In this document: positions 18,732 to 35,765 of the stretch, piece after piece
Layout: every line of letters begins with the position of its first letter
How positions within the stretch are numbered: position 1 is the first letter of the stretch
Source of the DNA: Egibacter rhizosphaerae
GTDB taxonomy: Bacteria; Actinomycetota; Nitriliruptoria; Euzebyales; Egibacteraceae
Reading direction: 5' to 3'
Assembly (NCBI RefSeq): GCF_004322855.1
Contig: NZ_CP036402.1
Location: 372,001-436,000, forward strand
Length of the DNA: 64,000 nt
Made by a program: the position numbers and the translations under genes
The notes under the pieces: generated by a model
The model's database searches: none
Told to the model about the DNA's origin: nothing
The model's input: only the letters and a program-made list of their open reading frames with translations

Positions 18732-20336
18732 CTAACGCTCGACCGGCGCCGTGGTCCACGCGCCGTCGAGCAGCCGAGGCAGGTCGAGCGGGTTCTCGTC
18801 GCGCAGGGCGGGGGGCAGCAGGGCCTGCGGGGCCGTCTGATAGGCGACGGGACGCAGGAACCGGCGGATGGCTGTGGAGCCGACCGAGGTGTGCAGCGGG
18901 TTGGTGGTGGCCGGATAGGGGCCGCCGTGGTGCATCGCGTGGGTGACGGCCACGCCGGTGGGATACCCGTTGCACACCACGCGGCCGGCCATGCGGGTCA
19001 GCTCCTCGACCAGCTCGGTGATCTTGTCCGCTTCGTCCTCTTCGGTGTGCACGGTGGCGGTGAGCTGGCCCTCCAGCGAGGCTGCGACGGTGATCTGCTC
19101 ACTGGGTGAGGCAGTGACCAGCACGGCCATCGGTCCGAAGTGCTCGGCGGCGAGATCCGGTTCGGCCAGGAAGCGCTCGGCAGGGACGCGCAGAACGGTC
19201 GGGCGGGCGGCGAACCCATCGCGCTCGGTGACCTCACCGGCTGCCAGTACCTCGACGCCGTCGATCGCTCGGGTTCGCGCCAGCTGCTCGGCCAGCGCGG
19301 ACGCGATGCGCCCGTTGAGCAGTGGGCCACCCGCATGCGCCCCGGCCTGCTCGGCAACACGCTCGGCGAACGAGGCGCCCTCGGCGCTGTCGGGCAGCAC
19401 CAGCACCCCGGGCTTGGTGCAGAACTGCCCGGTGCCCATGGTCATCGACTGCAGGAAGCCGTCAGCGATCTCCTCGCCTCGGGCCGCCAGCGCACCGTCG
19501 GTCACGAACACGGGGTTCAGCGAACTCATCTCGGCGTAGACCGGGATCGGCACATCACGCTGTGCCGCGAGATCGTGCAGCGCCCGACCCCCCGCCCGCG
19601 AGCCGGTGAATCCCACCGCGGCGATGCCCGGCGCCTCGACCAGCGCCGACCCGACCTCGACCCCTTGACCGTGGACCATCGACAGCGAGCCGGGCGGGGC
19701 GCCGGCGTCCGTCAGCGCCGCCCGCAGCGCCCGGGCGGTCCGCTCGCATGTCGCCGGGTGGGACGGGTGTGCCTTGGCCACCACGGGGCAGCCCGCCGCC
19801 AGCGCCGAGGCGGTGTCACCACCGGGCACGCTGAAGGCCAACGGGAAGTTGCTCGCACCGAAGACCGCGACCGGACCCAGGGGCACGAGCTGACGGCGCA
19901 GATCCGGTCTCGGGGGCACCACATCGGGGTTGGGCGCGTCGATCGTCGCCTCCAGGTAGCGACCCTCCGCGACCACGTCGGCGAACAGGCGTAGCTGGTT
20001 GCTGGTCCGCGCCAACTCCGTGGACAGCCGAGCCCGCCCCAAGGCGGTCTCGATATCGGCGACGGCGATGATCGCCTCGCCGTCGGCGTCCAGCGCGTCG
20101 GCTAGCCCTCGCAAGACCTCAGCGCGCCGCTGCGGCGTCCAGGCAGCCAGCACCGGCGCGGCCTCCACGGCCGCAGCGACCGCGTCGGCGACCTCGCCGC
20201 TGGTGGCCTCGGCCACCGCCAGCGGACCCTCCCCGCCGGTGCGCGGGTCCGGCCCGCGGAAGCGCGCTCCTTCGGCGCGCTCACGGTCAGCGACCAGGTT
20301 CGCCCCGGTCAGCGCTTCGATCCCCTCGGTACTCAT
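18732..20336 (-). CDS. Alpha-ketoglutarate semialdehyde (2,5-dioxovalerate) dehydrogenase
   Basis: The 534-residue aldehyde dehydrogenase has the features of the NADP-dependent KGSA/DopDH branch: an early EATSGEVADAVAAAVEAAPV helix, FGASNFPLAFSVPGGDTASA, AKAHPSHPATCERTA, the glutamate in YAEMSSLNPV and the catalytic cysteine in GTGQFCTKPG. It oxidises alpha-ketoglutarate semialdehyde to 2-oxoglutarate, the last step of non-phosphorylative sugar-acid and hydroxyproline pathways. It is the last gene of the TRAP/catabolic operon, 167 nt after DctM, with a tandem repeat in the gap. Its presence suggests the pathway drains into the TCA cycle. Confidence 0.9.
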   Translation of the reverse strand: MSTEGIEALTGANLVADRERAEGARFRGPDPRTGGEGPLAVAEATSGEVADAVAAAVEAAPVLAAWTPQRRAEVLRGLADALDADGEAIIAVADIETALGRARLSTELARTSNQLRLFADVVAEGRYLEATIDAPNPDVVPPRPDLRRQLVPLGPVAVFGASNFPLAFSVPGGDTASALAAGCPVVAKAHPSHPATCERTARALRAALTDAGAPPGSLSMVHGQGVEVGSALVEAPGIAAVGFTGSRAGGRALHDLAAQRDVPIPVYAEMSSLNPVFVTDGALAARGEEIADGFLQSMTMGTGQFCTKPGVLVLPDSAEGASFAERVAEQAGAHAGGPLLNGRIASALAEQLARTRAIDGVEVLAAGEVTERDGFAARPTVLRVPAERFLAEPDLAAEHFGPMAVLVTASPSEQITVAASLEGQLTATVHTEEDEADKITELVEELTRMAGRVVCNGYPTGVAVTHAMHHGGPYPATTNPLHTSVGSTAIRRFLRPVAYQTAPQALLPPALRDENPLDLPRLLDGAWTTAPVER

Positions 20337-20386
20337 GTGCGTACTCCTTCTGCGTGTCGACGTCGCGTCAACATTCCACCCTGGCC

Positions 20387-20453
20387 GGAGCCGTCACCCC
20401 GGGCGGGAGCCGTCACCCCGGGCGGGAGCCGTCGCTCTGGACCGGAGCCGTCG
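20387..20453 (+). repeat. 19-bp tandem repeat between DctM and the aldehyde dehydrogenase
   Basis: GGAGCCGTC recurs at 20387, 20406, 20425 and 20444, an exact 19-bp period; the first full units share GGAGCCGTCACCCCGGGCG. It fills most of the one large gap in an otherwise tightly packed operon. Confidence 0.8.
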
Positions 20454-20503
20454 ATGACCGGTTCCCGGAGCCGCTTCCGCGGACCACGAACGACCCGTCA
20501 GGA

Positions 20504-21787
20504 TCAGCGGAAGATGGCCTCGGGTAGCCACATCACAATCTCGGGGACCAGGACGATGATCACCAACCCACCGAGCAACGCGACCACGAACGGCAGGACT
20601 TGACGCGTCAGCCCGACGAACGAGACCTGGCTCACCTTACTCACCACGTACAACAACGCCCCGACCGGCGGCGTCAGCAGGCCGATCATGAGGTTGACCA
20701 CGATCACCACCCCGAAGTGGATGGGGTCCACACCCACGTCGAGCGCGGCCGGCAGCAGGATCGGTGCGAAGATCAGGATGGCGGGTACCGCGTCGATGAC
20801 CAGTCCCACGACGAGGAAGAAGACCATCGCGAGCAGCAGAAACTGCACCGGCCCGACATCGAGGCCGTCCACCAGCGTCGCAAGGTCGTCCCCGACCCGC
20901 TCGGCGGCGACGATGTAGCTGAAGATCCCCACCACCGCGAACAGGACCATCACCGTCGAGGCGAAGACCGCATTGTCGCGGAAGATCCCCCACAGGTCCC
21001 GCAGCGAGATCGTCCGGTAGATGAGGATGCCCACCAGCAACACGTAGCCGCTGGCCACGAACGCGAGCTCGGTCACCGTCGCAACGCCCGTGAGCACGCC
21101 ACCGACGATGATGACCGGGGCGACCAGGGCCATCAGCGCCTCGCTGAGCAGACGCCGCAGGCTGCCGAACGACCGCTCGGTGGGTTTGGCCACCGGCATG
21201 GGCTGGTGGCGGCCACGGAGGAACAGCACCACGAACAGGATCGCGGTGAGCAGCAGCGCGGGACCGACGCCCCCGAGGAACAGTTGCCCGACCGAGAGGT
21301 TGGTGACCAGGGCCACGAAGATCATCGGGATGCTCGGCGGCATGATCGGCCCGATGATCGCCGACGCCGCGTTCACCGACGCCGCGAACGTCGGCCGGTA
21401 GCCCTCCTCGCGCATGGCGGGCATGAGCACGGCGCTCACCGCCGAGGCGTCGGCCGGGGCGCTGCCCGAGATTCCCGACGCGAACAAGCTCACACTGACC
21501 GACACGTACGCCAAAGCGCCCCGGACCTTGCCGATGAAGAACAGCACGAGGTCGATCAGGCGTTTGGTCATCCCGCTGCGGTTCATCAGGTCCCCGGTGA
21601 GGATGAAGAACGGCACCGCCAGCAACTCGAAGCCGGACACGCCGTCCACCATCGCCGTGGGGAGCCGGGTCGCCTCGCCGAGATCGGCGATCAACACGTA
21701 GGCGACGCCCGACGTGGCCATGGCGACCCACACCGGCGCCCCCAGTGCCATGAGGGCGAACAGCAGGACGAAGAGGAGCGCGATCAC
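20504..21787 (-). CDS. dctM: TRAP transporter large membrane subunit (DctM)
   Basis: The start is GTG 21787, overlapping the stop of the creatininase-like gene (GTGA). The 427-residue product has about 12 hydrophobic helices and DctM signatures: GVSGFELLAVPFFILTGDLM, SLFASGISGSAPADASAVSA, IIGPIMPPSIPMIF and MIGLLTPPVGALLYV. DctM forms the sodium-coupled channel that accepts the ligand from the periplasmic binding protein. The longer open frame to 22078 is only the antisense-like shadow of the neighbouring gene. Confidence 0.95.
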   Translation of the reverse strand: MIALLFVLLFALMALGAPVWVAMATSGVAYVLIADLGEATRLPTAMVDGVSGFELLAVPFFILTGDLMNRSGMTKRLIDLVLFFIGKVRGALAYVSVSVSLFASGISGSAPADASAVSAVLMPAMREEGYRPTFAASVNAASAIIGPIMPPSIPMIFVALVTNLSVGQLFLGGVGPALLLTAILFVVLFLRGRHQPMPVAKPTERSFGSLRRLLSEALMALVAPVIIVGGVLTGVATVTELAFVASGYVLLVGILIYRTISLRDLWGIFRDNAVFASTVMVLFAVVGIFSYIVAAERVGDDLATLVDGLDVGPVQFLLLAMVFFLVVGLVIDAVPAILIFAPILLPAALDVGVDPIHFGVVIVVNLMIGLLTPPVGALLYVVSKVSQVSFVGLTRQVLPFVVALLGGLVIIVLVPEIVMWLPEAIFR

Positions 21788-22554
21788 GCGTTGGGGTCCG
21801 TCGTGACGAAGTGACGAGCGAAGGCCGCGATCCGGTCCACGGCCGTCTCCACGATCTCCTCCCCCGCCCCGCGGTTCGCACGGCGGGCGTCCCCGAACGC
21901 CCCGTTGCGGGTGCGGGCCGCGAACGACTTGGGCACCTGGAGCGCGTGCGGCTGGTAATTGTCCTCGTAGGGCCCGTACTCCTCGATCAGGTCGCCGGCC
22001 TCGAGCGCGTCGGTGTGGACGAGCTCCGGCGCCAGCACCATCGCCACACTGGTCTCGATCTCGCAGGCGTGGCCCCATCGATCGGTGACCGCGTGCTCCT
22101 GGATCACGTCGCGTGCCTGGGCGAGATAGAAGGCCGACGCCGCCCGCAGCCCGTCCTCGAACTCGAGCCGCGTGGTGAGCACCGACAGCACGGCCTGGTT
22201 GCCCATGTGCCCGTTCACGAACAGGAAGTGGCGCGGGCCGTGGCGCGCCAGGCTGCGCACGACGTCGGTCATCACGGCCTGGAAGGCGTCCGATCCGATA
22301 GAGATCGTGCCGGGAAACGCCATGTGATGGGCCGAGAGCCCGAACGGCAACGGCGGCGCGACGAGTGCGAGGCCGTACAGCCGCTCGGCGATCCGATGGG
22401 CCAAGCCATCGGCGATGCGGTAGTCGATCCCGAGACCGAGGTTGGGTCCGTGCTGCTCGGTGGCGCCGACGGGCAGGAGGATTACCTGCCCCTCGCCGAG
22501 CGTGGGGGCGAGCTCGGCCGAGCTCGCGGCGGACAGATCGAACGGGGCGCTCAC
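21784..22554 (-). CDS. Creatininase-family amidohydrolase inserted between TRAP DctQ and DctM
   Basis: The 256-residue protein starts at GTG 22554, overlapping the DctQ stop, and ends overlapping the DctM start, so all three are translationally coupled. Creatininase-fold metal ligands are visible in LPVGATEQHGPNLGLGIDYR (Glu, His, Asp), the FVNGHMGNQ segment and GHACEIETS. Family members open cyclic amides or hydrolyse formamides and lactam-like bonds using two metals. Its position inside a carrier operon suggests that it acts on the imported compound or an early intermediate; the substrate is unknown. Confidence 0.85.
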   Translation of the reverse strand: MSAPFDLSAASSAELAPTLGEGQVILLPVGATEQHGPNLGLGIDYRIADGLAHRIAERLYGLALVAPPLPFGLSAHHMAFPGTISIGSDAFQAVMTDVVRSLARHGPRHFLFVNGHMGNQAVLSVLTTRLEFEDGLRAASAFYLAQARDVIQEHAVTDRWGHACEIETSVAMVLAPELVHTDALEAGDLIEEYGPYEDNYQPHALQVPKSFAARTRNGAFGDARRANRGAGEEIVETAVDRIAAFARHFVTTDPNA

Positions 22555-23078
22555 TCCTGGTCTCCTTCCGGTGGCTCGACGTCGTCGCGCGCCGCTTCCC
22601 GCTCGAAGCGCAACGGCAGGACCAGCGCGGCGAGCAACAGGAGGGTCCCGGCGGTGGGGACCGCGGCGAAGGCCCAGCTGGTGGGCAGACCCAACTGGAT
22701 GTACGCGATGCCGGTGCGCACGAGGGTCACTTGGATGCCCGCGTACACGAGCGAGGCGAACAGCACCAACTCGATGGCGCGTACGGCCGTGGCGAGGGCG
22801 AGCTCCGAGCGTCCCTGGAACCGCGCGACGACGAAGTCGACGACGATGTGGCCCCGCTGGTGATAAGCCACGACGACCCCGAGCATGACCATCCAGACGA
22901 ACAGCAACTGGCTGAGATCGGTGACCCACAGGAAGCCACCGCCGAAGAAGGTCCGCATCGCGATCTGGACCGCGTTGATGAGAAAGATCGCGAAGAAACA
23001 CAGCCCGGCGAGGCCGGCGCACGCGCGGGCGAGGTGGTGCACACCGGCGCGCAAGGGTTCGACGGGGAGCGTCGTCAC
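22551..23078 (-). CDS. dctQ: TRAP transporter small membrane subunit (DctQ)
   Basis: The 175-residue protein has the four-helix DctQ pattern: ACAGLAGLCFFAIFLINAVQ, then FLWVTDLSQLLFVWMVMLGVV, with AYHQRGHIVVDFVVARF in the conserved loop between helices 2 and 3. GTG 23078 follows GAGGAGG. It pairs with DctM in a sodium-dependent TRAP carrier. A GC-rich hairpin separates it from DctP, and its stop overlaps the start of the creatininase-like gene. Confidence 0.93.
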   Translation of the reverse strand: MTTLPVEPLRAGVHHLARACAGLAGLCFFAIFLINAVQIAMRTFFGGGFLWVTDLSQLLFVWMVMLGVVVAYHQRGHIVVDFVVARFQGRSELALATAVRAIELVLFASLVYAGIQVTLVRTGIAYIQLGLPTSWAFAAVPTAGTLLLLAALVLPLRFEREAARDDVEPPEGDQE

Positions 23079-23163
23079 GTCACCTCCTCATCGCCAACGG
23101 CCGGCCGGGGCCGCCGCTGGGGCCACAGGACCCCCGTCAGGCCACGGGGCGGCCGGGGTCGGG

Positions 23164-23199
23164 ACTCGGCCCCGGCCCCGGCCCCGGCCCCGGCCGAGT
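23164..23199 (-). terminator. GC-rich hairpin between DctP and DctQ
   Basis: ACTCGGCC (23164-23171) pairs with GGCCGAGT (23192-23199) around a tract of five CCCCGG-like hexamers. It lies 3' of DctP and 5' of DctQ on the transcript, so it could attenuate read-through or stabilise the binding-protein mRNA. Confidence 0.5.
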
Positions 23200-23202
23200 G
23201 GG

Positions 23203-24384
23203 CTAACCGGCCTCCTCGGCCAGCTCGCGGGTTTCCTCCAGCAGGCCCTGCTCCCAGAGGTCACCGTCGAACTGCTCGAACTCGCCCTCGAGCGCCTCCT
23301 CGAACGACTCGATGTCGGGCTCGACGATCTCGAGGTTCTCCTCGAGGGTGCCCATGGCCTCGTCCATCTGCTCGCCGACCTGCTCGGTCACGACCTCGCC
23401 GGCCTCCTCGGCCGCCTCCTCGATGACCTCCTGGAGCTCAGGTTCCAGGTCCGCGTGGATCTCGTCGCTCATGTAGAAGGTCTCGACGTCGCGGATGTAG
23501 TCGATCGGCATGAAGTAGTCCTGCACCTCGTAGAAGCTCTGGGTCACCATCGAGATCGCGCCGTTCTCCTGCGCGTCGACGACACCCTGCTGCAACGAGA
23601 GGTACAGATCGCTGAAGGGCACAACCTCGGGCTGGGCGCCGAGGGCGGTCGCGAACTGCTGTGGCATCTCGGCCTCGGCGATCCGCAGCGAGAGGCCCTC
23701 CATGTCGTCGGCGGTCTCGACCGGGCGGTCGGCGCTCAGCGCGCGGGGCTCCTTGTCGCCCGCGGTGGCGATGACGCGCACCCCGGTCTCCTCCGCCGCC
23801 TCGTCGAACAGCTCCTGGAAGCGGTCGGTCTCCATGACCTCCCGGAACTGCTCGTAGCTCTCCCACATGAACGGCACGCTCGTGACGAGGAAGTTGTCCC
23901 CGCCGTCGAGCGTCGGGTAGATCGAGATCCCCTCGTAGAACATGTCGAGCTCGCCGGCCTGCATGTCGGCGAACAGATCAGGGAAGTCGCCGAGCTGGCT
24001 GTCGGGGAAGATGTCCACCTCGACCGCCCCGTCGGTGCGCTCGGAGAGGATCTCGCCGAACCGCTCGGCCCCGGCGTGCGCGGGGTCGTCCGTGGTCCGG
24101 ATCGTGGCCAGCCGAATCGTGCGCTCCTCGACATCGATGGTCTCGTCGGCGGCCTCGTCGGGCTCTTCCTCGGCCTCCTCCTCGTCGGGCTCGTCGTCCG
24201 GCTCGTCGTCCGGCTCGTCGTCGGGCTCGTCGTCGGGCTCGTCGTCAGGCTCGGGTTCCTCGGTGCCGTCGGCGTCGGGCTCGTCGTCGGCCACGTCGTC
24301 CTCGTCCTCGGCGCAGGCCGCAAGGACCAGGGCGGCGGTCATCAGCGCGGCGAGCAGCCAGAATCTGCGGAGTTGCGCTCGCAT
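23203..24384 (-). CDS. dctP: TRAP transporter substrate-binding lipoprotein (DctP)
   Basis: ATG 24384 follows AAGGAGG and gives 393 residues. The signal peptide ends in a lipobox (LVLAACAED), so the mature protein is lipid-anchored outside the membrane. Residues about 25-80 are an extremely acidic linker built of DDEP repeats. The DctP domain follows: IRLATIRTTDDPAHAGAERF, ISIYPTLDGGDNFLVTSVPF and SLQQGVVDAQENGAISMVTQ. TRAP receptors bind carboxylates through a conserved Arg. The acidic linker agrees with a saline habitat. It delivers the ligand to DctQM, encoded downstream. Confidence 0.93.
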   Translation of the reverse strand: MRAQLRRFWLLAALMTAALVLAACAEDEDDVADDEPDADGTEEPEPDDEPDDEPDDEPDDEPDDEPDEEEAEEEPDEAADETIDVEERTIRLATIRTTDDPAHAGAERFGEILSERTDGAVEVDIFPDSQLGDFPDLFADMQAGELDMFYEGISIYPTLDGGDNFLVTSVPFMWESYEQFREVMETDRFQELFDEAAEETGVRVIATAGDKEPRALSADRPVETADDMEGLSLRIAEAEMPQQFATALGAQPEVVPFSDLYLSLQQGVVDAQENGAISMVTQSFYEVQDYFMPIDYIRDVETFYMSDEIHADLEPELQEVIEEAAEEAGEVVTEQVGEQMDEAMGTLEENLEIVEPDIESFEEALEGEFEQFDGDLWEQGLLEETRELAEEAG

Positions 24385-24421
24385 CTCGGTGCCTCCTTTT
24401 GTTCGATGGCCATTCCCGTCC

Positions 24422-24892
24422 CTATTGGACGTTGTCGTGGCTGAAGATGAACTCGAGCTCGACCGGGGCGTCGCGCGGGAGCTCGGCCACGCCGACCGCC
24501 GAGCGGGCGTGGCGACCCGCGTCCCCGAACACCTCGGCCAGCAGGTCGCTGGCGGCATCCACGACCTTCGGCTGCCCGTGGAAGCCCTCGGCGCTCGCGA
24601 CGAAGCCGGTGACGCGCACGACGCGCCGGATGCGATCGAGACCGCCCAGCGCGTCCGCGGTGACCGCGAGCCCCTGCAGCACACAGATCCGGGCGGCCGT
24701 CCTGGCCTCCTCGAGGTCCGCGTCCTCGCCGACGCGCCCGGTGATGCGTACCTCGCCCTCCTCCTTGGGCAGTTGGCCGCTCACGAAGGCGAGGTCGCCG
24801 TGCACCGCGACGGGGACGTAGTTGAAGGACGGCTTGGCGGGCTCGGGCAGCTGTAGGCCGAGTTCGGCCAGGCGCTCAGTCGGCGTGGGCAT
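24422..24892 (-). CDS. RidA-family (YjgF/YER057c/UK114) protein
   Basis: The 156-residue protein has the RidA pattern NYVPVAVHGDLAFVSGQLP, then EARTAARICVLQGLAVTADA and a C-terminal VGVAELPRDAPVELEF segment. It belongs to the divergent branch with an N-terminal RLAELGLQLP extension; members hydrolyse reactive enamines/imines or act as atypical deaminases. ATG 24892 overlaps the end of the SDR gene by 17 nt, placing it in the operon. With the creatininase-like enzyme it hints at a nitrogen-containing intermediate. Confidence 0.85.
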   Translation of the reverse strand: MPTPTERLAELGLQLPEPAKPSFNYVPVAVHGDLAFVSGQLPKEEGEVRITGRVGEDADLEEARTAARICVLQGLAVTADALGGLDRIRRVVRVTGFVASAEGFHGQPKVVDAASDLLAEVFGDAGRHARSAVGVAELPRDAPVELEFIFSHDNVQ

Positions 24893-25832
24893 CGGTGACC
24901 TCCGTTCGGGCGACGTAGTCGGCGGCAGCGCTGGCGAGCCCGAGCGGCGGCTCGAGCCCGAGGTCGGTGACGGCCGCGGAGCCGTCGACGAGCGGGAAAT
25001 CCGGTCCCTGCCGCGCGACGAGGTCGACCGCGGCCGGCGCCCTGGCGTGGGCGGCCACGGCGCGGGCGAGCTCGGCCAGCGACGCTTGGTGGGCGGCGAG
25101 GTTGTAGACGTGGCCCGGGGAGTCGGCGTGGAGCGCGGCCAGCAGGGCGTGTGCGGCGTCGTCGACGTACATCCAGTCGGCGAGGGTGTCGGTCGCCTGG
25201 ATGCGGGTCGGTCGCCCGGCGGCGACATCGGCGACGAAGGCGACCAGCGCGTCCTGCGAGCCCCCGTACCAGCGTCCCGGTCCGAACACGAGCGGCAACC
25301 GCAACCCGACCGGCCGGACGCCGGTACGTCCCTCGAGTGGCGCCGCCATCAGCTCCGCGGCGGCTTTGGTCGCCCCGTAGATGGTCTGTGGGGCGGGGGG
25401 CACGCGCTCGTCCACGAGTGACCGTGGATCGGGCGTGCCGAATGCGTAGACGGTCGTGGAGCTCGACCACACGATCCGGTCCAGCCCGACCTCGCCGGCC
25501 GCCTCGACCACGTTCACGAGTCCCCGCACATTCACGTCCACCGCGGCCACGGGGTTCTCACTCGCGCCCGCGAGCAGTCCCGCCGGCCCCGAGCCGTAGG
25601 CGGCGAGGTGGACCATTGCGCCCGGGCGCGTGGTCGCCAGCGCCTCGCGCACACTCTCCGGGCTGGCCACGTCGCAGTAAACGACCGGCACGTCGGAGGC
25701 CACGACCGCGGCCCCGGCCGGGTCGTCGGGTGCCAGGAGCACCGGCTCGTAGCCCCGAGCGCGCCCGGCCGCGGCGACGGCACGGCCGATGAACCCCGTG
25801 CCGCCGAACACGGCCAGTGTCACGCGGCTCAC
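24876..25832 (-). CDS. Extended short-chain dehydrogenase/NAD-dependent epimerase
   Basis: The 318-residue protein has the Rossmann motif GGTGFIGRAVAAAGRARGYE at residue 9, the SST strand SSSTTVYAFG, and the catalytic YGATK. Residues about 195-240 include the WMYVDDAAHALLAAL segment of the epimerase/dehydratase C-terminal half. In sugar-acid operons such enzymes oxidise or epimerise the carbohydrate. Its start (GTG 25832) overlaps the stop of the enolase-superfamily gene and its end overlaps RidA. Confidence 0.88.
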   Translation of the reverse strand: MSRVTLAVFGGTGFIGRAVAAAGRARGYEPVLLAPDDPAGAAVVASDVPVVYCDVASPESVREALATTRPGAMVHLAAYGSGPAGLLAGASENPVAAVDVNVRGLVNVVEAAGEVGLDRIVWSSSTTVYAFGTPDPRSLVDERVPPAPQTIYGATKAAAELMAAPLEGRTGVRPVGLRLPLVFGPGRWYGGSQDALVAFVADVAAGRPTRIQATDTLADWMYVDDAAHALLAALHADSPGHVYNLAAHQASLAELARAVAAHARAPAAVDLVARQGPDFPLVDGSAAVTDLGLEPPLGLASAAADYVARTEVTDAHAD

Positions 25833-26983
25833 GATGTCCTCACGCGCAGCTCGGTGACGGCGTCCTCGTCGATCTCCACGCCGAGTCCCGGGCCGTCAGG
25901 GACCGGGACGACCCCGTCGACGGGCCGGATCGGGGTGACGAGCAGGTCGTCACGCAGGCGGTTCGCCCCACGGTCGAACTCCAGCCACAACGGCTGCGGG
26001 GCGACGGCGGTGTGCGGGGTCGCGGGGACGGCGGCGAGGAGCTGCAGGGAGGCGGCTTGAGCCACCGCCCCACCCCAGACGTGGGGGGAGACCCGAAGGT
26101 TCCAGGTGTGAGCGAGGTCGATGATGACGCGCGCCTCGGCGATGCCCCCGCACTTCGCGACGTCCGGCTGCACGACGTCGGCGAGCTGGGAGGCGATCAC
26201 CGGCCGGAAGCCGTACCGGGTGTAGAGGGCCTCGCCGGTGGCGATCGGCACGCCTGCGGCGCGAACGCGTGCGAGGCCGTCGAGGTCCTCGGGAGGAACG
26301 GGCTCCTCGACCCACGCGATGCGCAGGTCGCGGATCGCCATCAACGTCTCGATCGCGAGATCAGCGGTGTAGTTGCCGTTGAAGTCCACCATCAGCACGC
26401 GGTCGTCACCCAGCTTCTCCCGGGCGAGCTCCGCGCGTCGCCGGTCGCGCTCGGCGCCCAGCCCGAGCTTGACCTTGGCCGCGGGGAATCCGTCGCTCGC
26501 GACGGTCTCGAGCTGGGCCGCGTAAGCGGCCTCCCCGTCCTCGTGGTCGAGGACGTAGCCGGTGGAGGCGTATGGCACCAGCTCCTCGCGGGCGCGCCCG
26601 CCCAGCAGCGATGTCACCGGCACGCCGAGCGTGCGGCCCCACGCGTCCCACAGCGCGATCTCGACGCCGCTGAGAGCGGCGAGATGCGCGCCGCCGAGAC
26701 CGCGGTGATAGCCCGTCTGCAGGATGTGACGAACCAGGGGCACGATGCGGTCGACGGGCTGGCCGACCACCTCGTCGCGAAGTTCGGCGACACCTGCGAC
26801 CACCGGACCGGGGGGGCCGAAGCCCTCACCCCAACCCACGACCCCCTCGCTGGTCTCGAGCCGCACGAGCGTCGCGGCGCGGGCCGGGATCTGCCCGCGG
26901 GCACTGCCGTAGCGGTGTCCGCTCGGCAGCTGGTGGGCGACCGGGATCGGCTCGATCTTGACGACCTGCGGCCGGCGGCTCAT
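25829..26983 (-). CDS. Enolase-superfamily (mandelate racemase/sugar-acid dehydratase-like) enzyme
   Basis: The 384-residue protein has the capping domain (RLETSEGVVGWGEGFGPP) and the barrel with all expected catalytic groups: KVKLG (K-x-K base), VDFNGN (metal Asp), WVEEP and IATGEALYTR (metal Glu pair), DVVQPDVAKCGGI, and RVSPHVWGGA with the His expected in the mandelate-racemase subgroup. Such enzymes abstract an alpha proton of a carboxylate, typically to dehydrate an aldonic or related acid. It overlaps the preceding and following genes by 4 nt, tying it to the ThDP enzyme and SDR. Confidence 0.92.
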   Translation of the reverse strand: MSRRPQVVKIEPIPVAHQLPSGHRYGSARGQIPARAATLVRLETSEGVVGWGEGFGPPGPVVAGVAELRDEVVGQPVDRIVPLVRHILQTGYHRGLGGAHLAALSGVEIALWDAWGRTLGVPVTSLLGGRAREELVPYASTGYVLDHEDGEAAYAAQLETVASDGFPAAKVKLGLGAERDRRRAELAREKLGDDRVLMVDFNGNYTADLAIETLMAIRDLRIAWVEEPVPPEDLDGLARVRAAGVPIATGEALYTRYGFRPVIASQLADVVQPDVAKCGGIAEARVIIDLAHTWNLRVSPHVWGGAVAQAASLQLLAAVPATPHTAVAPQPLWLEFDRGANRLRDDLLVTPIRPVDGVVPVPDGPGLGVEIDEDAVTELRVRTS

Positions 26984-28629
26984 CGCGAGCCTCCTTCCGC
27001 GACGAGGTCGCTGAGTCGAGCTGCCGGGGTCAGAACGTCGGGATCGACGAGCACGTCGACGACCGCTGGACCGGCGTGGTCGCGCGCGGCCGCGAGCGCC
27101 GGCTCGAGCTCGTCGGATCGGGAGACCCGCCAGGCAGCCGCCCCGTAGGCGTGCGCGAGGCCGGCCACGTCCACCTCGCCGATGTCGACGCCGGACGTAC
27201 GGCCGTGCTGGCGACCCTGGTGCAGCGCGATCGTGCCGTACAGGCCGTTGCGGAAGACCACCACCGTGAGGCGGGCGCCGTATCGAACCGCGGTCTCCAG
27301 CTCCTGCCCGGTCATGAGCAGGCCCCCGTCGCCGACGAGCACCACGACCTCCCGCTCGGGTTCCGCCAGCGCCGCCGCGACCCCCGCCGGCACCCCGTAG
27401 CCCATCGCACCGCTCGTCGGCCCCAGCTGGGTCCTGGGATGTCGGAACGACCAGAAACGGTGCCCGAAGACCGAGAAGTTGCCGGCGTCGTTGGCGATCA
27501 GCGTGTCGTCGGGATGCGTGGCGGCCAGTGCGGCCATCACCGCTTCCGGGTGTATGGGATCCCCGACGTGGGCGGTCGGCCGGCTCGCCTCCTCGAAGGC
27601 GGTGTGGGCCTCGCGCCAGTCACGGGTCGGTGCGGGCTGCTGGGCGGCCGTGGCAGCCAATTGGCCCAGCACCTCCCGTGCGCCACCGACCACGCCGAGG
27701 TCGACCGGGACGACCGCACCGACCATCTCGGGGTCGGCGTCGATCTGGGCGATCCACGCATCCGGCCGCGGCAGCGTGTACGCCTGCGTGGTGATCTCGC
27801 TCATTCGGGCGCCGGCGATGAGCACCGCGTCCGCCTCCCGCAGCGCTTCCAGGATCGTCGGCGGCGTCCCCAGCGTGAGGTGCCCCAGGTAGAGGGGGTG
27901 GTCGTTCGGGAAGACGTCCTGCCGGCGGAAGCTCGCGTAGACCCCTGCGCCCAGGGCCTCGGCAGCCGCGACCAGCTGTTCGCGCGCTCCTTGCGCCCCG
28001 CCACCGGCGATGATCACCGGGGCCGCAGCCTCGCTCAGGCGCGCCGCCAACTCCTCGGCCTCGGGGCCCGCGAGCGCCGCCGTCGCGTGCCGCGCGACAC
28101 TCGGCCGCCACCCGTCGTCCTCCGGCGCGTCCCCCTCCAGCACATCCGCCGGCAGTGCGAGCATCGCCGGCCCGGGTCGCCCGGAGGTCGCCGCGTGCCA
28201 GGCGCGGTCCACGAGCTCGGGCAACCGCTCGGCGCTCGTGGCCGTGGCCGCCCACTTGGTGATCTCCGCGTAGTACGCGGGCAGGTCCACCTCCTGGAAG
28301 GCCTCGCGTGTCAGGTGGGCCGTCTCAACCTGGCCGAGCAACACGATCATCGGGGTGGAGTCCTGCCGAGCGGTGTGGACCCCGATCGACAGGTTCGATG
28401 CCCCCACACCGCGCGTCGCCATGGCCACGGCGGGGACACCGGTGAGCTTGGCGTCGGCCTCCGCCATGAACGCCGCCCCGGACTCATGCCGCGTCGAGAC
28501 GAGCATCGTCGAGGGATGGCGGTCGAACGCATCGAGCAGCGGTAGGAAGCTCTCCCCCGGCACCGTGTAGGCACGCCGCACCCCCACCCCGACGAGTTGC
28601 TCGACGATCGCCTCCGCGACCCCGCTCAT
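26980..28629 (-). CDS. Thiamine-diphosphate-dependent enzyme of the acetolactate synthase/benzoylformate decarboxylase type
   Basis: The 549-residue protein has three domains. The N-terminal PYR domain includes YTVPGESFLPLLDAFDRHPS, with the glutamate that activates ThDP, and the HESGAAFMAEADAKLTGVPA segment. The central domain has APVIIAGGGAQGA. The C-terminal PP domain has GDGGLLMTGQELETAVRYG, the Mg/ThDP motif. This could be a 2-keto-acid decarboxylase, lyase or acyl-transferring enzyme. Located between GntR and the enolase-superfamily gene, it probably cleaves or decarboxylates a 2-keto acid produced in the pathway; its reaction is not identifiable here. Confidence 0.9.
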   Translation of the reverse strand: MSGVAEAIVEQLVGVGVRRAYTVPGESFLPLLDAFDRHPSTMLVSTRHESGAAFMAEADAKLTGVPAVAMATRGVGASNLSIGVHTARQDSTPMIVLLGQVETAHLTREAFQEVDLPAYYAEITKWAATATSAERLPELVDRAWHAATSGRPGPAMLALPADVLEGDAPEDDGWRPSVARHATAALAGPEAEELAARLSEAAAPVIIAGGGAQGAREQLVAAAEALGAGVYASFRRQDVFPNDHPLYLGHLTLGTPPTILEALREADAVLIAGARMSEITTQAYTLPRPDAWIAQIDADPEMVGAVVPVDLGVVGGAREVLGQLAATAAQQPAPTRDWREAHTAFEEASRPTAHVGDPIHPEAVMAALAATHPDDTLIANDAGNFSVFGHRFWSFRHPRTQLGPTSGAMGYGVPAGVAAALAEPEREVVVLVGDGGLLMTGQELETAVRYGARLTVVVFRNGLYGTIALHQGRQHGRTSGVDIGEVDVAGLAHAYGAAAWRVSRSDELEPALAAARDHAGPAVVDVLVDPDVLTPAARLSDLVAEGGSR

Positions 28630-29306
28630 GTCACGGCCTCGCCTTCGTGTCCCAACCGATCGGCCACACCCTGGATGTGGGCGGTGAGCTCGGCGCGTGC
28701 CTTGGTGAGATCGCCCTCGGTGAGGGCCGCCACGATCCGGCGGTGCTCGTCGTTGGCTTGCCTCGCATCGACGCGTCCGCGACCGATGAACAGCCGGGCG
28801 ATCTGCACGTGCGCGTTGAGCTTGCGGTACGTCCGCTCGAGCATCGGGTTCCCCGCGGAGGCGACCAGCGTGGTGTGGAACCGCGCGTCGGCCCCGTTGA
28901 ACCCCCGCAGGTCCAGCTCATCGGCCTCGATCAGGCCGTCCATGAGCTCCACCTCCTTGCGGAGGTCGGTCACCGTCCCACTGGCGGCCCCACCGGGGCG
29001 TTCCACCGAGTGCGCTTCGATGAGGGCCCGGACCTCGGCGAGTTCGTGGATCTCGTCGATGTCGAGCAGCGGCGCCACGTAGAAGCCCTTGAACGGCTGG
29101 ACCCCGACCAGGTCCTCGTCCGCGAGGCGCCGCAGCGCATCCCGCAACGGCGTGGGGCTGACCCCCAGCTCTCGCGACAGCCGATCGATGTTGAGCCGCT
29201 GACCGGGCTCGAGTTCGAGGTTGATGATCCGCTCGTGCAGCGCCTCGTACGCACGATCGCTCAGCATGCTCCGACTGAGGTGCGAAGTCTCGTCCGGCTC
29301 ATCCAT
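28626..29306 (-). CDS. GntR-family (FadR/FCD type) regulator of the TRAP/catabolic operon
   Basis: From ATG 29306 the protein has 226 residues: an N-terminal winged helix (RIINLELEPGQRLNIDRLSR, ELGVSPTPLRDALRRLADED) and an FCD ligand domain with metal ligands in DARFHTTLV and in NDEHRRIVAAL. It is the first gene of the operon and its stop overlaps the start of the ThDP enzyme (ATGA), so it is autoregulated with the pathway. FCD regulators usually bind a carboxylate metabolite. The dyad CGAA-G-TTCG (29324-29332), just upstream, is a candidate operator. Confidence 0.9.
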   Translation of the reverse strand: MDEPDETSHLSRSMLSDRAYEALHERIINLELEPGQRLNIDRLSRELGVSPTPLRDALRRLADEDLVGVQPFKGFYVAPLLDIDEIHELAEVRALIEAHSVERPGGAASGTVTDLRKEVELMDGLIEADELDLRGFNGADARFHTTLVASAGNPMLERTYRKLNAHVQIARLFIGRGRVDARQANDEHRRIVAALTEGDLTKARAELTAHIQGVADRLGHEGEAVT

Positions 29307-30394: not shown

Positions 30395-30522
30395 CCGGCC
30401 AACTTCAGCCGCCGATCGGAGCCTCCCCTCGGACGCTTCCGCCGCGGAACCTCGCGAGGTCGGGCAACGTCGGAACAGGGCACGATTGGCCGAGCCCGTC
30501 GGCAAGCCGGAGGGGACGCAAG

Positions 30523-31834
30523 ATGGGCCGAACCAGTGGGGCGACGCGAGCAGCGGCGCTGTTCTCCGCCGCTGCGTTGTTGGCATCCGCGTGCGGGAGC
30601 GGCACCGGCGCACCGGCGGAGGCCGGACCCGTGGGCGACGTGGAGGACATCGACCGGAGCCGCCTCGCCGACGTCGACGCCGAACGGACCTCCCGTCTCG
30701 CCGAGGGCATCGATGCGTTCGGGTTCGCGCTGCTCGACGAGCTCCGCGACGACGGAGCCGGCGGCGAAGACGACGATGCCGGAACCGTGCTCTCGCCCGT
30801 GTCCGCGGCCGCCCTGCTTGTGCTGCTGCTGCCGGGCGCCGAGGGCGAGACCGCCGAGGAGATCGCCGCCGCGCTGCACACCGACGTCGACGCGGTGACC
30901 GACGGGCAGGTGGGTGGCCTCCTCCTCGACCTCGCGACCGCGCCCGACGTCGACCTCACCCTCGCCAACGCCGCGTGGTTCACCCCCGACTACCCCGTCG
31001 AGGGCGACTACCGCGAGGAGATCCGCGCGACGCTCGGCGCCAGCATCGACGAGCTCGATCTCGGCGACGCCGACGACGTCGAAGAGATCGATGCGTGGGC
31101 CGAGGAGCGCACCGATGGCCTGGTCGACGAGATCAGTGACGCGCTCGGGCTGCCGCGGGCGAACGCGGTCGCCGTACTGGCCAACGCCACCCATTTCGCC
31201 GGCGACTGGACCGACCAGTTCGACCCCGACGACACCGCCGCGGGACCGTTCACCCGCGACGACGGCGCCGAGGTGACCACCGACCTCATGCACCACGACG
31301 AGGCCGACGTGTTCGTCGCCGCGGACCACGAGCGCGACCTCGTACCTGGCCCGTCTCCCCTACGGCGAGCACGAGGAGGCGACCGACGCGCGATTCGGGT
31401 TCGAGGTGCTGCTACCCACCGACGAGGCCTCCATCGCGGCCGTGCTCGACGAGCTCAGCGCCGACGAGTGGCGGGAGCTGTCCGAGCGAGCGTCCCGCAA
31501 GGAGCTGCCGGTCGTCCTGCCGACGTTCGACCTCGAGGCCGAGCACGACCTCACCGCGCCCCTCAAGGCCCTCGGGATCGAGCGCGCCTGGGGCGACGGC
31601 CACGACTTCACCGGCATGTCGCCGAACAACCCGTGGCTCGAGACGGTGGCGCAGAAGGCCGTCATCGAGGTCGACGAGGAAGGCACCGAGGCGGCCGCGG
31701 TCACCGGTGGTGTGATGGCGGAGTCCGCGCCGGCGCTCACCGAAGTCGTCGTCGACCGCTCCTTCGCGTTCGCGGTCCGCGACACCGAGAACGGCGTCCC
31801 GCTCTTCCTCGGGTTCGTCGACGACCCGGGGTAG
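30523..31834 (+). pseudogene. Bacterial serpin lipoprotein, frameshifted
   Basis: ATG 30523 (GGAGGG upstream) begins a signal peptide with lipobox (LLASACGSG). Serpin features follow: AFGFALLDEL, VLSPVSAAALLVLLLPGAEG, NAAWFTPDY and LANATHFAGDWTDQF. Near 31336-31343 the frame shifts; the rest continues as YLARLPYGEHEEATDARFGF and ends with the reactive-loop-like EEGTEAAAVTGGVM and the closing strand FLGFVDDPG at 31834. Both halves align to one full-length serpin of about 430 residues, a protease inhibitor on the cell surface. The shift is either a genuine inactivation or a base-calling error. Confidence 0.85.
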
Positions 31835-31950
31835 CCCCGTCCGGTCGGACGTGAAAGTCGTGTTTCTTTCGTCTCAGCGAGGTAATCGCTGGCCACCCAC
31901 CGTGCTCACCTTCACTGTCCACCGATACGCGGGGACCAGGGGTGGTAGCC

Positions 31951-32454
31951 ATGAGCGAAGGTGCCCACTCGCAACGCCCGAGTGGCGAGGAGGCGGAGAC
32001 CGCCTACCTCACCACGAAGCTCGAGACGCGAACCCGCTTCGAGATCCGCCCGCAGGTGTTCATCCCCGCGGTGATCATCATCGTCGCGTTCCTCGCGCTC
32101 GGGTCGCTCGCTCCGGACAGGGCGACGGAGGCGTTCGCCGCCGTGCAGGACGCGATCGCGGCGAATCTCGCGTGGCTCTATCTCGGCGCGGTGACCGTGT
32201 TCCTGGTGTTCGTGGTCTGGCTCGCCGTGAGCCGTCACGGCGAGAAGCGGCTCGGCCCCGACGATGCACGTCCGCATTACAGCTACCCCGCGTGGTTCGC
32301 GATGCTGTTCAGCGCGGGCATGGGCATCGGCCTGCTGTTCTTCAGCGTCGCGGAGCCGATCAGCCACTTCGGGCTCCAGGTCCCACCCTGGTCCGACGCG
32401 GAACCCGGGTCACCCGAGGCCGCGACGGACGCGATGACCACCACGTTCTTCCAC
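31951..32454 (+). CDS. BCCT-family transporter, exon 1 (before group II intron)
   Basis: These 168 codons encode the N-terminal part of a betaine/choline/carnitine-type carrier: a cytoplasmic tail, then FEIRPQVFIPAVIIIVAF (helix 1), a second helix and YSYPAWFAMLFSAGMGIGLL with the family's glycine-rich segment. Coding stops exactly after TTFFH at 32454, where the intron begins with GTGCGC. Joined to 34620 the reading is TTFFH-WGVHAWAIY, the conserved BCCT sequence, so the split is precise to the base. ATG 31951 follows AGGGGTGG. Confidence 0.9.
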
Positions 32455-33058
32455 GTGCGCCACGAGGCGCTGATTGACCGGGAGGGGTGTAAGGACCCTC
32501 CTCTGTCCTGTCGCAGCAGGGCGGTGAAGCTGGAGGCAGCCTGATCCTGGGTGTGCAGGGGAGGGTGGAGAGCAGCCTCGACAACGGCGGAGCGGGCTGG
32601 CACTACCAGACGGCTCGGGTTCGTCTAGCGAGACGGAAGGGTGTAACGCGAGTGAACCGGTGGTTGAAGCCCCTTAAGTGTGGATCCGGCTCGAACCTGG
32701 TGGATGTGGGCCGGTCAGTCGTGCGCGCGGACCTTGTGTTGGGGAATGCGACTCCTGCAGCGGTTCCAGTTACCGGCTGGGGAGGCCATGGGGAAAGCCT
32801 GCGGCGTAGCCATGGCGAGGCGGCAGGGGTAAAGCCGGACGCCGGATCCGTCGACCGGAGATCAGTGAACGTGGGAACCGCCCTTGGGCTGCCCTTCCCG
32901 TCGGCCAGCCAGGCCGGTGACGGGCAGGTCCACAGCCGACTGTTGGCCCGGGGGTGGGACGGAGCCTGTGTAGTAGTCCGAGGGCGGGAGAGCCGTCCAC
33001 ATGGCGAAGGCAGGCAGCAAGATCGCAACGGTCGGACTGGAATGCCAGGAGGTCGCCG

Positions 33059-34513
33059 GTGAACACTGGCGCGCCATGGCCCGACGCCGCGCAGGCGCGG
33101 GTCAGGGTACTGGAGATCCAGACGAAGTTGCACCGATGGGCTCGCGGTGATGCGGACCGTCGGTTCGATGACCTGTTCAACCTTGTCGCTGACCCGGCGT
33201 TCCTCGTGGTGGCGTGGACTCGGGTCCGAAACAACAGGGGATCGCGCTCTGCCGGTGTCGACGGGCGCACCGCCCGCGAGATCGAGCAGGGCGGGGTCGA
33301 GGCGTTTCTGGATGGTCTGCGCGCCCAGCTCAGGGCGCGCGCGTTCACGCCTCAGTCGGTCCGCGAACGCACGATCCCCAAGCCGGCGACGACCAAGAAG
33401 CGACGGTTGGGGATCCCCACCGTGGCTGATCGGGTGGTCCAGGCCAGCCTGAAGCTGGTGCTGGAGCCGATCTTCGAGGCGGATTTCCAGCCGTGCTCGT
33501 ACGGCTTCCGGCCTCGACGCCGCGCCCAAGACGCCATCGAGGAGGTCCGCTTCTACGCCGCTCGCTCCTACGAGTGGGTGCTGGAAGCCGACATCCAGGC
33601 GTGCTTCGACGAGATCGACCACACGGCCCTGATGGACCGGGTGCGCCGACGGGTCGGGGACAAGCGGGTGCTGGCCTTGGTCAAGGCGTTCCTCAAGGCC
33701 GGGATCCTCTCGGAGGATCAGGTCAGCAGGGACACGCACACCGGCACTCCGCAAGGAGGCATTCTCTCCCCGTTGCTGGCCAATATCGCCCTGTCGGTGC
33801 TCGACGACCACGTCGTTGAGCAGTGGCAGAACGCGGGAGACGCCACACAACGCTATCGGCACCGCCTGCGGGGCGGGGCGACCTGGCGGCTGATCCGCTA
33901 CTCGGACGACTTCGTCGTCCTGGTCTCCGGCTCCCGCGAGCACGCCGACGCGCTGCGCGGCGACATCGCCAGTCTCCTCGCGCCGATGGGCCTGCGCCTG
34001 TCAGAGGCCAAGACCGGCGTGACCCACATCGACAAGGGGTTCGACTTCCTCGGGTTCCGGATCAAACGGGACCGCCAACAGGGGTCGGACCGCCACTTCA
34101 TCTACACCTACCCCGCCAAGAAGGCGCTCGCGTCGATCAAGCGGAAGGTGAAGTCGGCCACGACACAGGGATATAACCGATCCCTCGCCAGCCTGCTGCA
34201 GCACCTCAGCTCGGTGCTGCGGGGCTGGACCCAGTACTTCCGACACTCCTCGGCGTCGGCGACCTATGGCTACCTCCGCCACTACACCTGGTGGCGAGTA
34301 GTTCACTGGCTCCGCCACAAACACCCGAAGGCCAACTGGAAGACGCTCCGCCGTCGCTACCTGCGCCCCGCAGGCAGAACATGGGCAGCGGACGAAGGCG
34401 TGGAACTGTTCGACCCCACGACCGTCGCCATCACCAGGCACCGGTACCGAGGCGCACAGATCCCCACCCCCTGGACCGAGGAACCCCGCACAGCAGCCAG
34501 CTTCCCGGCATGA
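33059..34513 (+). CDS. ltrA: Group II intron-encoded reverse transcriptase/maturase
   Basis: GTG 33059 follows GGAGG and yields 484 residues. RT blocks are present: RTIPKPATTKKRRLGIPTVA, DRVVQASLKLVLEPIFEADF, SYGFRPRRRAQDAI, the second catalytic region YEWVLEADIQACFDEIDHTA, TGTPQGGILSPLLANI and the active site RYSDDFVVLV (YSDD in place of YADD). Domain X (maturase) follows with LASLLQHLSSVLRGWTQYFR. I see no HNH endonuclease Cys cluster at the C-terminus, so it likely belongs to an endonuclease-lacking class. The protein should aid splicing and reverse-splicing of its own intron. Confidence 0.95.
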   Translation: MNTGAPWPDAAQARVRVLEIQTKLHRWARGDADRRFDDLFNLVADPAFLVVAWTRVRNNRGSRSAGVDGRTAREIEQGGVEAFLDGLRAQLRARAFTPQSVRERTIPKPATTKKRRLGIPTVADRVVQASLKLVLEPIFEADFQPCSYGFRPRRRAQDAIEEVRFYAARSYEWVLEADIQACFDEIDHTALMDRVRRRVGDKRVLALVKAFLKAGILSEDQVSRDTHTGTPQGGILSPLLANIALSVLDDHVVEQWQNAGDATQRYRHRLRGGATWRLIRYSDDFVVLVSGSREHADALRGDIASLLAPMGLRLSEAKTGVTHIDKGFDFLGFRIKRDRQQGSDRHFIYTYPAKKALASIKRKVKSATTQGYNRSLASLLQHLSSVLRGWTQYFRHSSASATYGYLRHYTWWRVVHWLRHKHPKANWKTLRRRYLRPAGRTWAADEGVELFDPTTVAITRHRYRGAQIPTPWTEEPRTAASFPA

Positions 34514-34522
34514 CCTTGTGGA

Positions 34523-34556
34523 GAGCCGGATGCGGTGAGAGCCGCACGTCCGGTTC
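34523..34556 (+). ncRNA. Group II intron domain V
   Basis: A 34-nt hairpin starting GAGCCGGATGCGGTGAGAG and ending CCGGTTC has the size, the GNRA-type tetraloop (GAGA) and the AGC catalytic triad near its 5' side expected of domain V. It lies 63 nt before the 3' splice site and 9 nt after the maturase stop. Confidence 0.85.
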
Positions 34557-34619
34557 GGCGGGCGGGGCGGGGAAACGGACCCGGCGCAAGCCAGGCACCG
34601 CGCCCCGCTCCGACCCAAC

Positions 34620-35765
34620 TGGGGCGTGCACGCCTGGGCGATCTACATCGTGGTGGGGCTGGCCCTCTGCTACTTCGCCTATCGGCGTGGGCTGCCCCTC
34701 GCGATGCGCTCGGCCTTTCACCCGCTGTTGGGTGACCGCATCTTCGGGTGGCCGGGCGACGTCATCGACGTGCTCGCCATCGTCGGGACACTGTTCGGCG
34801 TGGCAACGTCGCTGGGGATCGGTGCCACGCAGATCAACGCCGGCCTCGAGCACGTGTTCGGCATCCCGTCCGGCATCGGACCCCAGGTGGCGATCATCGC
34901 GGTCATCACGGTCATCGCGACCGGTTCTGTCGTTCTCGGATTGCACCGTGGCATTCGGCGCCTGAGCCTGGCCAACGTCGGGATCGGCGGCGTGCTCATG
35001 GTGTTCGTGTTGCTCGCCGGCCCGACCGTCTTCCTGCTGAACGCGCTGTTCGACAACCTCGGCGCCTACGTGTCGTCGCTGCCGCGCCTCTCACTCGGTG
35101 CGCAGGAACTCGTCGGCGATGACTGGGAGGCGGACTGGACGCTGTTCTACTGGGGCTGGTGGATCTCCTGGTCGCCGTTCGTGGGGATGTTCATCGCGCG
35201 CATCTCCCGCGGCCGCACAATCCGCGAGTTCATCGCCGGCGTGCTGCTCGTACCCACCGTGGTGACCGCGCTCGTGCTCACCGTGTTCGGCGAGACCGCG
35301 CTGTTCGCCGAGTTGACCGGCGAGCCCGGCGTGGTGGACGCGGCCGAGGAGAACCTGGACGTGGCGCTGTTCGAGACGCTCGAGCTGTTGCCGTTCGGCG
35401 TGCTCACGTCGCTCGTGGCCGTGGCGGCGATCGCGCTGTTCTTCATCACCTCGTCGGACTCGGGCTCCCTGGTCGACGACATCCACGCGTCGGGCGGCAG
35501 CATCTACCCGCACACCGGCACGCGAGTGTTCTGGGCGGCCCTCGAGGGACTGGTCGCCGCGATTCTCCTCTCGCTCGGTGGGGAGACCGGGCTCGAGGCC
35601 CTGCAGCAGGCCTCGATCGCGACCGGCGTGCCCTTGGCGATCCTCCTGCTCGCCGCCTGCTGGGCGTTGGTGCGCGCGTTCCGCCACGAGGAGGACCACC
35701 CCGAGCTGGTCGTGGAGTCCAGCGAGCGGGCCGAGCGCGCCGCCGAGCGGGAGGAGACCGCGTAG
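34620..35765 (+). CDS. BCCT-family transporter, exon 2 (after group II intron)
   Basis: These 381 codons complete the carrier (549 residues in total): WGVHAWAIYIVVGLALCYFA, a GIGATQINAGLEHVFGIPSG segment, and the substrate-site helix around TLFYWGWWISWSPFVGMFIA, with the aromatic box that binds trimethylammonium groups, then FFITSSDSGSLV. A sodium- or proton-coupled uptake of a betaine-like osmolyte is expected. There is no start codon at the junction, so synthesis of a full carrier requires intron splicing. The C-terminus is rich in Glu and Arg, as in osmosensing BCCT members. Confidence 0.92.
   Translation, partial: WGVHAWAIYIVVGLALCYFAYRRGLPLAMRSAFHPLLGDRIFGWPGDVIDVLAIVGTLFGVATSLGIGATQINAGLEHVFGIPSGIGPQVAIIAVITVIATGSVVLGLHRGIRRLSLANVGIGGVLMVFVLLAGPTVFLLNALFDNLGAYVSSLPRLSLGAQELVGDDWEADWTLFYWGWWISWSPFVGMFIARISRGRTIREFIAGVLLVPTVVTALVLTVFGETALFAELTGEPGVVDAAEENLDVALFETLELLPFGVLTSLVAVAAIALFFITSSDSGSLVDDIHASGGSIYPHTGTRVFWAALEGLVAAILLSLGGETGLEALQQASIATGVPLAILLLAACWALVRAFRHEEDHPELVVESSERAERAAEREETA

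Follow-up and report, generated by a model that had tools for sequence, protein, structure and literature searches.

An oxidative hexuronate pathway running through Udh, Gli, Gci, KdgD and KGSADH has been described in Agrobacterium (PMC6353982). A 64,000-nucleotide stretch of the Egibacter rhizosphaerae genome (the window; contig NZ_CP036402.1, positions 372,001–436,000) carries a ten-gene cluster on its minus strand that shares with this pathway an extended-SDR dehydrogenase, a Gci-like enolase-superfamily enzyme and an aldehyde dehydrogenase (ALDH) of the α-ketoglutarate semialdehyde (KGSA) dehydrogenase type. Unlike the Agrobacterium pathway, the Egibacter operon has no KdgD and possesses a ThDP enzyme, a RidA protein and a creatininase-type hydrolase; its SDR and ALDH are not orthologous to those of Agrobacterium at the equivalog level. 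Because the defining gene, KdgD, is lacking, the operon does not belong to the known oxidative uronate pathway, although it probably functions as a variant of that pathway. A TRAP importer, which is also found in the Egibacter operon, is presumably present in the Agrobacterium hexuronate cluster. The best overall explanation, to which we assign a probability of about 0.4, is a catabolic operon under GntR control that degrades a sugar acid, feeding 2-oxoglutarate via ThDP and KGSA steps. The substrate would most likely be a hexuronic (or closely related aldaric or aldonic) acid, and we give the conversion of a uronate to 2-oxoglutarate an even chance of being correct. The cluster extends over positions 18732–29306 of the window, its outer limits being exactly the stop of the ALDH gene (18732) and the start of the GntR gene (29306), and comprises the following genes:

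28626–29306, minus strand: GntR/FadR-type regulator with GntR and FCD domains, first gene (PF00392, 60 bits; PF07729, 80 bits)
26980–28629, minus strand: ThDP-dependent enzyme of the acetolactate-synthase/2-keto-acid-decarboxylase superfamily, NCBIfam PRK08199 (three Pfam TPP domains; NF006052)
25829–26983, minus strand: enolase-superfamily acid-sugar dehydratase/cycloisomerase (MR_MLE_N/C; best PDB matches 4ggb/4hpn, 3.3e-74)
24876–25832, minus strand: extended SDR of the NAD-dependent epimerase/dehydratase family, proposed uronate/aldose dehydrogenase (PF01370, 137 bits)
24422–24892, minus strand: RidA/YjgF-family protein, PA0814-like (PF14588, 80 bits; 9bk9 (PA0814), 2.7e-41)
23203–24384, minus strand: DctP, TRAP solute-binding protein with a signal/lipobox-like start and an acidic linker (PF03480, 189 bits)
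22551–23078, minus strand: DctQ, small TRAP permease (PF04290, 82 bits)
21784–22554, minus strand: creatininase-family metal-dependent hydrolase, between DctQ and DctM (PF02633, 211.7 bits)
20504–21787, minus strand: DctM, large TRAP permease (TIGR00786, 347 bits, cut-off 268)
18732–20336, minus strand: ALDH of the NADP-dependent Vibrio harveyi/KGSADH type, with its own RBS past a 167-nt gap (1eyy, 7.9e-124)

Each gene has a high third-position GC content and a clear family match, and the ten leftward genes listed in a first-pass annotation of this DNA are present as stated, with the families that it named. Its description of most neighbours as overlapping by 4 nt is true of five of the nine junctions (GntR/ThDP, ThDP/enolase, enolase/SDR, DctQ/creatininase and creatininase/DctM); the others are a 17-nt overlap (SDR/RidA) and three gaps (37 nt between RidA and DctP, 124 nt between DctP and DctQ, and 167 nt between DctM and the ALDH gene). 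Neither a promoter/terminator scan nor folding the RNA of the 124- and 167-nt gaps yielded anything informative for the operon. The DctP-DctQ gap (window 23079–23205) contains GGGGCC-type short repeats and folds strongly, at a level not clearly above that of shuffled sequence (z -1.6).

The first-pass annotation had proposed a search for the co-occurrence of these families in other genomes, and the families do recur together. Nine genes (GntR-ThDP-enolase-SDR-RidA-DctP-DctQ-creatininase-DctM) are colinear in a Euzebyales MAG (56–76% identity) and occur in the same order in Tamaricihabitans halophyticus (Pseudonocardiaceae; 44–65% identity), where a GTDB scan with the enolase alignment located them; the GntR orthologues are 70 and 45% identical, respectively. 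An ALDH of the same type lies near the block in both relatives, upstream of GntR and outside the tight operon (divergent in Tamaricihabitans). The ALDH gene is, thus, linked to the operon without being a constant part of it, and its position in the relatives does not support co-transcription with it. The combination is rare and patchy: the ThDP protein was found at E<=1e-80 in 6 of 66 genomes of the class, one of them the MAG; of 396 genomes sampled across the phylum, 2 had close enolases, and Tamaricihabitans itself was the only one of 297 genomes of its family in which the ThDP context was found. A tblastn search of plasmids with the ThDP, creatininase and SDR proteins revealed no syntenic cluster (four neighbourhoods inspected). 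Haloarchaeal creatininase matches include a mycofactocin locus and loosely similar sugar clusters, and were not taken as evidence. The clustering is far beyond chance association, and the conservation of the nine-gene order at about 50% identity, together with its rare and patchy distribution, suggests one functional unit that may have moved between genomes as a block. That the set forms one conserved pathway unit is, in our judgement, very likely.

The closest PDB sequences of the enolase-superfamily enzyme are 4ggb/4hpn, which we take to be the galactarolactone cycloisomerase (Gci) of Agrobacterium, and the 'galactonate dehydratase' 5olc is also among them. Residues K170-x-K172, D200, E226, E251 and D274/H301 align with 4ggb/4hpn and are invariant in three copies; they presumably represent the two lysines, the metal ligands and the Asp-His dyad that characterize acid-sugar dehydratases. 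Haloarchaeal relatives, 40–46% identical, lie in pectin/glucuronate clusters, where their annotated neighbours are pectinesterase, rhamnogalacturonan acetylesterase, GH115, UxaC or mannonate dehydratase, together with KdgD-like DHDPS proteins, Udh-like SDR/oxidoreductases and ALDHs. These uronate/pectin clusters (L033, L034, L082 and L085–L087) share an orthologous-looking enolase, a Udh-like SDR and an ALDH with the Egibacter operon, but have a KdgD-like DHDPS or no linked dehydratase, and the 8 kb scanned contain no match to the ThDP enzyme, creatininase or RidA. Clusters in Micromonospora and Pseudonocardiaceae (L030, L078 and L079) have sister enolases and the same type of ALDH (48–50%), whereas an FAH-family enzyme and MFS carriers replace the ThDP block and the TRAP transporter. 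One Pseudonocardiaceae cluster (L078, 12408–16356) also encodes an RraA-like protein, a SnoaL-like protein and a second enolase-superfamily protein, and a similar SnoaL-like gene precedes the enolase gene in Micromonospora (L030). By sequence, the enolase relatives and their neighbourhoods point to uronic or aldaric acids.

The ALDH is 47–48% identical to plasmid genes annotated as 2,5-dioxovalerate dehydrogenase, and another of its top plasmid matches, in Azospirillum brasilense, adjoins DHDPS-family and SMP-30 family genes. It falls far below the NCBIfam KGSADH equivalog cut-offs, these models describing another subfamily, and its putative assignment is based on membership of the Vibrio/KGSADH-type group. 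Family matches support the pairing of a sugar-acid-type dehydratase with a KGSA-dehydrogenase-type ALDH proposed in the first-pass annotation. The SDR has YGATK as its YxxxK motif and weak PDB matches to the NAD-dependent epimerase/dehydratase 3ay3 (1.4e-5), which we take to be a uronate dehydrogenase, and to the mutated uronate dehydrogenase 6mfh (1.6e-5). Its sequence is not close to those of known uronate dehydrogenases, which counts against the uronate reading.

A related gene set occurs in Halorubrum sp. CBA1125 (L068), in which the enolase gene is divergent from SDR-ALDH-creatininase-ThDP. The grouping of these five families is shared with Egibacter, but the ThDP enzyme is distant (31%), there is no RidA or TRAP match, and the ALDH is of another subfamily, with 2,5-dioxovalerate dehydrogenase (588.7 of 750) and KGSADH (532.5 of 770) as its top two NCBIfam models. 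In the tree, the ThDP-linked enolases are split between an actinobacterial position (88/80 support) and the base of the haloarchaeal group. Given the different ALDH subfamily and the distant ThDP enzyme of Halorubrum, the gene set was probably assembled twice, in actinobacteria and in haloarchaea. KGSA is likely to be the last intermediate, as two different KGSADH-type ALDH subfamilies are found in these two apparently independent clusters.

The ThDP enzyme scores 592.6 bits with NF006052 (PRK08199), above the cut-off of 539, and 325.6 bits with the biosynthetic acetolactate synthase model TIGR00118, below the cut-off of 538.35. Its cofactor motifs, H-E and GDG...N, are conserved. The nearest ThDP enzyme in the PDB is BbmA, for which no relevant paper was found in the open literature. 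The first-pass annotation had remarked that the usual dehydratase/aldolase of KGSA routes is missing, and no linked DHDPS- or FAH-family dehydratase was found: there is no KdgD (DHDPS family) within 8 kb of the Egibacter enolase locus, and none above the curated cut-off in the Egibacter genome or the Euzebyales MAG. A KdgD-like gene does exist at another site in the Tamaricihabitans genome (292 bits, below the cut-off of 374), and the haloarchaeal KdgD-like genes also fall short of this cut-off. Among 18 enolase-clade loci scanned within 8 kb, a ThDP gene is present in five, a DHDPS-type gene in six and an FAH-family match in four (two full and two partial), and ThDP never occurs alongside a DHDPS- or FAH-type enzyme. 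With 9 of the 18 loci having a DHDPS/FAH neighbour, the chance of finding none at the five ThDP loci is about 0.015, a descriptive figure only, the loci being related. The suggestion in the first-pass annotation that the ThDP enzyme supplies an unrecognised route is partly supported: the comparison of loci favours a substitute step, whereas no support was found for an amide- or lactam-containing substrate. We tentatively place the ThDP enzyme in the position of KdgD, an assignment that we consider possible rather than probable. ALS-type ThDP enzymes often carboligate, which counts against it.

A competing explanation is that an unlinked DHDPS- or FAH-family enzyme forms KGSA and that the ThDP enzyme acts elsewhere, for example by carboligating a short keto acid or a short aldehyde. 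The Egibacter genome does encode a second protein of the DHDPS family and seven of the FAH family, all unlinked to the operon, the KdgD-like gene of Tamaricihabitans also lies elsewhere, and the ThDP enzyme is ALS-like by sequence. However, KdgD is absent above the cut-off from Egibacter, the second DHDPS protein has its better matches among DapA/KDG-aldolase models, not KdgD, and ThDP and DHDPS/FAH genes are mutually exclusive near the enolase gene. This explanation is unlikely.

In the order of reactions that we infer for the uronate reading, the TRAP transporter would import the sugar acid, the SDR would oxidize it to an aldarolactone and the creatininase-type hydrolase would open this lactone. 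The enolase-superfamily enzyme would dehydrate the resulting aldarate (or cycloisomerize the lactone) to 2-keto-3-deoxyhexarate, and might also dehydrate the other end, to give 2,5-diketoadipate. A singly dehydrated aldarate would be a 2-keto-3-deoxy acid, and enzymes of this ThDP superfamily naturally act on substrates of that type, whereas an aldarate dehydrated from both ends would be 2,5-diketoadipate, the decarboxylation of which would yield KGSA. Decarboxylation of the 2-keto acid by the ThDP enzyme, combined with dehydration, would thus generate KGSA, the same overall conversion as that by KdgD but achieved without Schiff-base catalysis; the ALDH would convert KGSA to 2-oxoglutarate, and RidA would accelerate an enol- or imine-to-keto conversion. 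Taken as a whole, a ThDP-dependent formation of KGSA, in which an enolase-type dehydratase and a PRK08199 decarboxylase act on an aldarate via 2-keto-3-deoxyhexarate or 2,5-diketoadipate in place of the Schiff-base enzyme KdgD, preceded by a lactonase of the creatininase family and with independent assembly in actinobacteria and haloarchaea, is a still more tentative proposal. No pathway with this chemistry or gene combination was found in the open papers searched. The first-pass annotation had stated that the combination fits no pathway that it could name, and that homologous operons with a defined pathway would refute its reading; such operons exist, but neither annotation nor the searchable papers were found to link any of them to a pathway.

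A second block, SDR-ThDP-enolase-RidA-creatininase, is present elsewhere in the Egibacter genome beside an Opp-type ABC importer (locus L021). Its recurrence with another importer favours the reading above, and its lack of an adjacent ALDH gene counts against it. At L021 (6641–7531 and 124–849), this block has its own GntR gene, in addition to the importer and an amidohydrolase-2-like protein. The amidohydrolase was considered as a Gli-like lactone isomerase and rejected, its PDB matches being only weak and to 5-carboxyvanillate-type decarboxylases; it matched no NCBIfam model at E 1e-10. Two other loci have fewer genes of the set: the ThDP gene alone at L022, and ThDP, creatininase and GntR at L024. 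The 69%-identical ThDP gene at L022 (7186–10285) adjoins a gene for an apparent FMN-dependent α-hydroxy-acid dehydrogenase, which would likewise yield 2-keto acids.

The creatininase-family protein scores below each curated cut-off (TIGR04448 creatininase, 108.7/235; TIGR03964 MftE, 126.1/172; NF041098 IolN, 68.9/245). Its metal ligands (ExH...D...H...E) are invariant in five copies, and its predicted model aligns with creatininase structures over 223–237 residues (Z 23–24, rmsd 2.6–3.6). With a putatively lactone-forming SDR encoded alongside, a lactonase role is the simplest guess for this hydrolase. RidA is 65–75% identical to the copies in three other loci. It belongs to a different Rid subfamily (PF14588) from the archetype TIGR00004, with which it scores 32.6 bits against a cut-off of 106.25, and its arginine motif (ARSxVGVAELP), presumably that of imine hydrolases, is intact, leaving room for a nitrogen-containing substrate. 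RidA would have no clear job if the substrate were nitrogen-free, a further point against the uronate reading. The TRAP transporter is complete, with DctP, DctQ and DctM all in one cluster. DctP conserves, by motif, an Arg/Arg/Asn ligand signature (EPRALS...LRIAEA...QEN); its AlphaFold model is poor (pLDDT 43). Two arginines and one asparagine have been reported at the ligand site of glucuronate-binding proteins, and the signature is also common to sialic-acid binders, the best named PDB matches of DctP.

These features bear on a second alternative, in which the sugar acid contains nitrogen, an amino-uronate being one example: the creatininase-type hydrolase would cut an amide or lactam, the enolase-superfamily enzyme would dehydrate, RidA would hydrolyse an imine and the ThDP enzyme would decarboxylate the keto acid. 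The conservation of RidA and creatininase with the block, their intact motif and metal ligands, the N-acetylneuraminate-binding matches of DctP and an aspartate-dehydrogenase-like gene adjoining the Halorubrum cluster are consistent with such a substrate. However, the genes conserved with the block do not include any aminotransferase, deacetylase, amidase or PLP enzyme, the enolase relatives lie in uronate/pectin clusters and RidA is absent from the Halorubrum locus, making this alternative doubtful. The first-pass idea of an amide- or lactam-containing acid is not supported: the nearest enolase relatives and their neighbourhoods indicate uronic or aldaric acids, and a lactone would be a more natural target for the creatininase.

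A pentonate or tetronate pathway without KGSA, in which the enolase-superfamily enzyme would form a 2-keto-3-deoxy acid, the ThDP enzyme a hydroxyaldehyde (e.g. 3,4-dihydroxybutanal) and the ALDH a hydroxy acid, would need fewer steps. In Micromonospora and Pseudonocardiaceae, the related enolase and ALDH genes are accompanied by FAH genes, a pairing also seen in some pentonate routes, and the matches of the SDR include aldonate-type enzymes, among them erythronate dehydrogenase. This pathway nevertheless seems improbable, given that both of the distinct ALDH subfamilies recruited are of KGSADH type and that the haloarchaeal neighbours are hexuronate/pectin genes. Inositol pathways include the creatininase-family protein IolN and the ThDP enzyme IolD, but a cyclitol-like ring opening by IolD-like and IolN-like enzymes is very improbable here, because the match to IolN (69 bits) does not reach the cut-off of 245, TRAP carriers and enolase-superfamily dehydratases generally require a carboxylate, and no other iol gene is linked.

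If the uronate reading with ThDP in the place of KdgD is correct, the ThDP subfamily PRK08199, so far without an assignment, would acquire a function, a lactonase-like role would be added to the creatininase family, and a cofactor-based replacement for KdgD would exist in a central sugar-acid route, providing a new set of enzymes for the conversion of pectin acids to 2-oxoglutarate or C5 semialdehydes. For the acid that the first-pass annotation left unnamed, there is now a limited set of substrates and intermediates that can be tested.

Two further features lie on the plus strand of the window, beyond the operon. A BCCT-type transporter gene (31942–35765) is interrupted by a group II intron with a reverse transcriptase ORF (32954–34513) and a domain V (RF00029; 34521–34585), the 3' part of the transporter gene continuing from about 34626. 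At about 30520–31834, a secreted serpin-like protein is apparently split over two frames (30373.. and 31406–31834), as if frameshifted.
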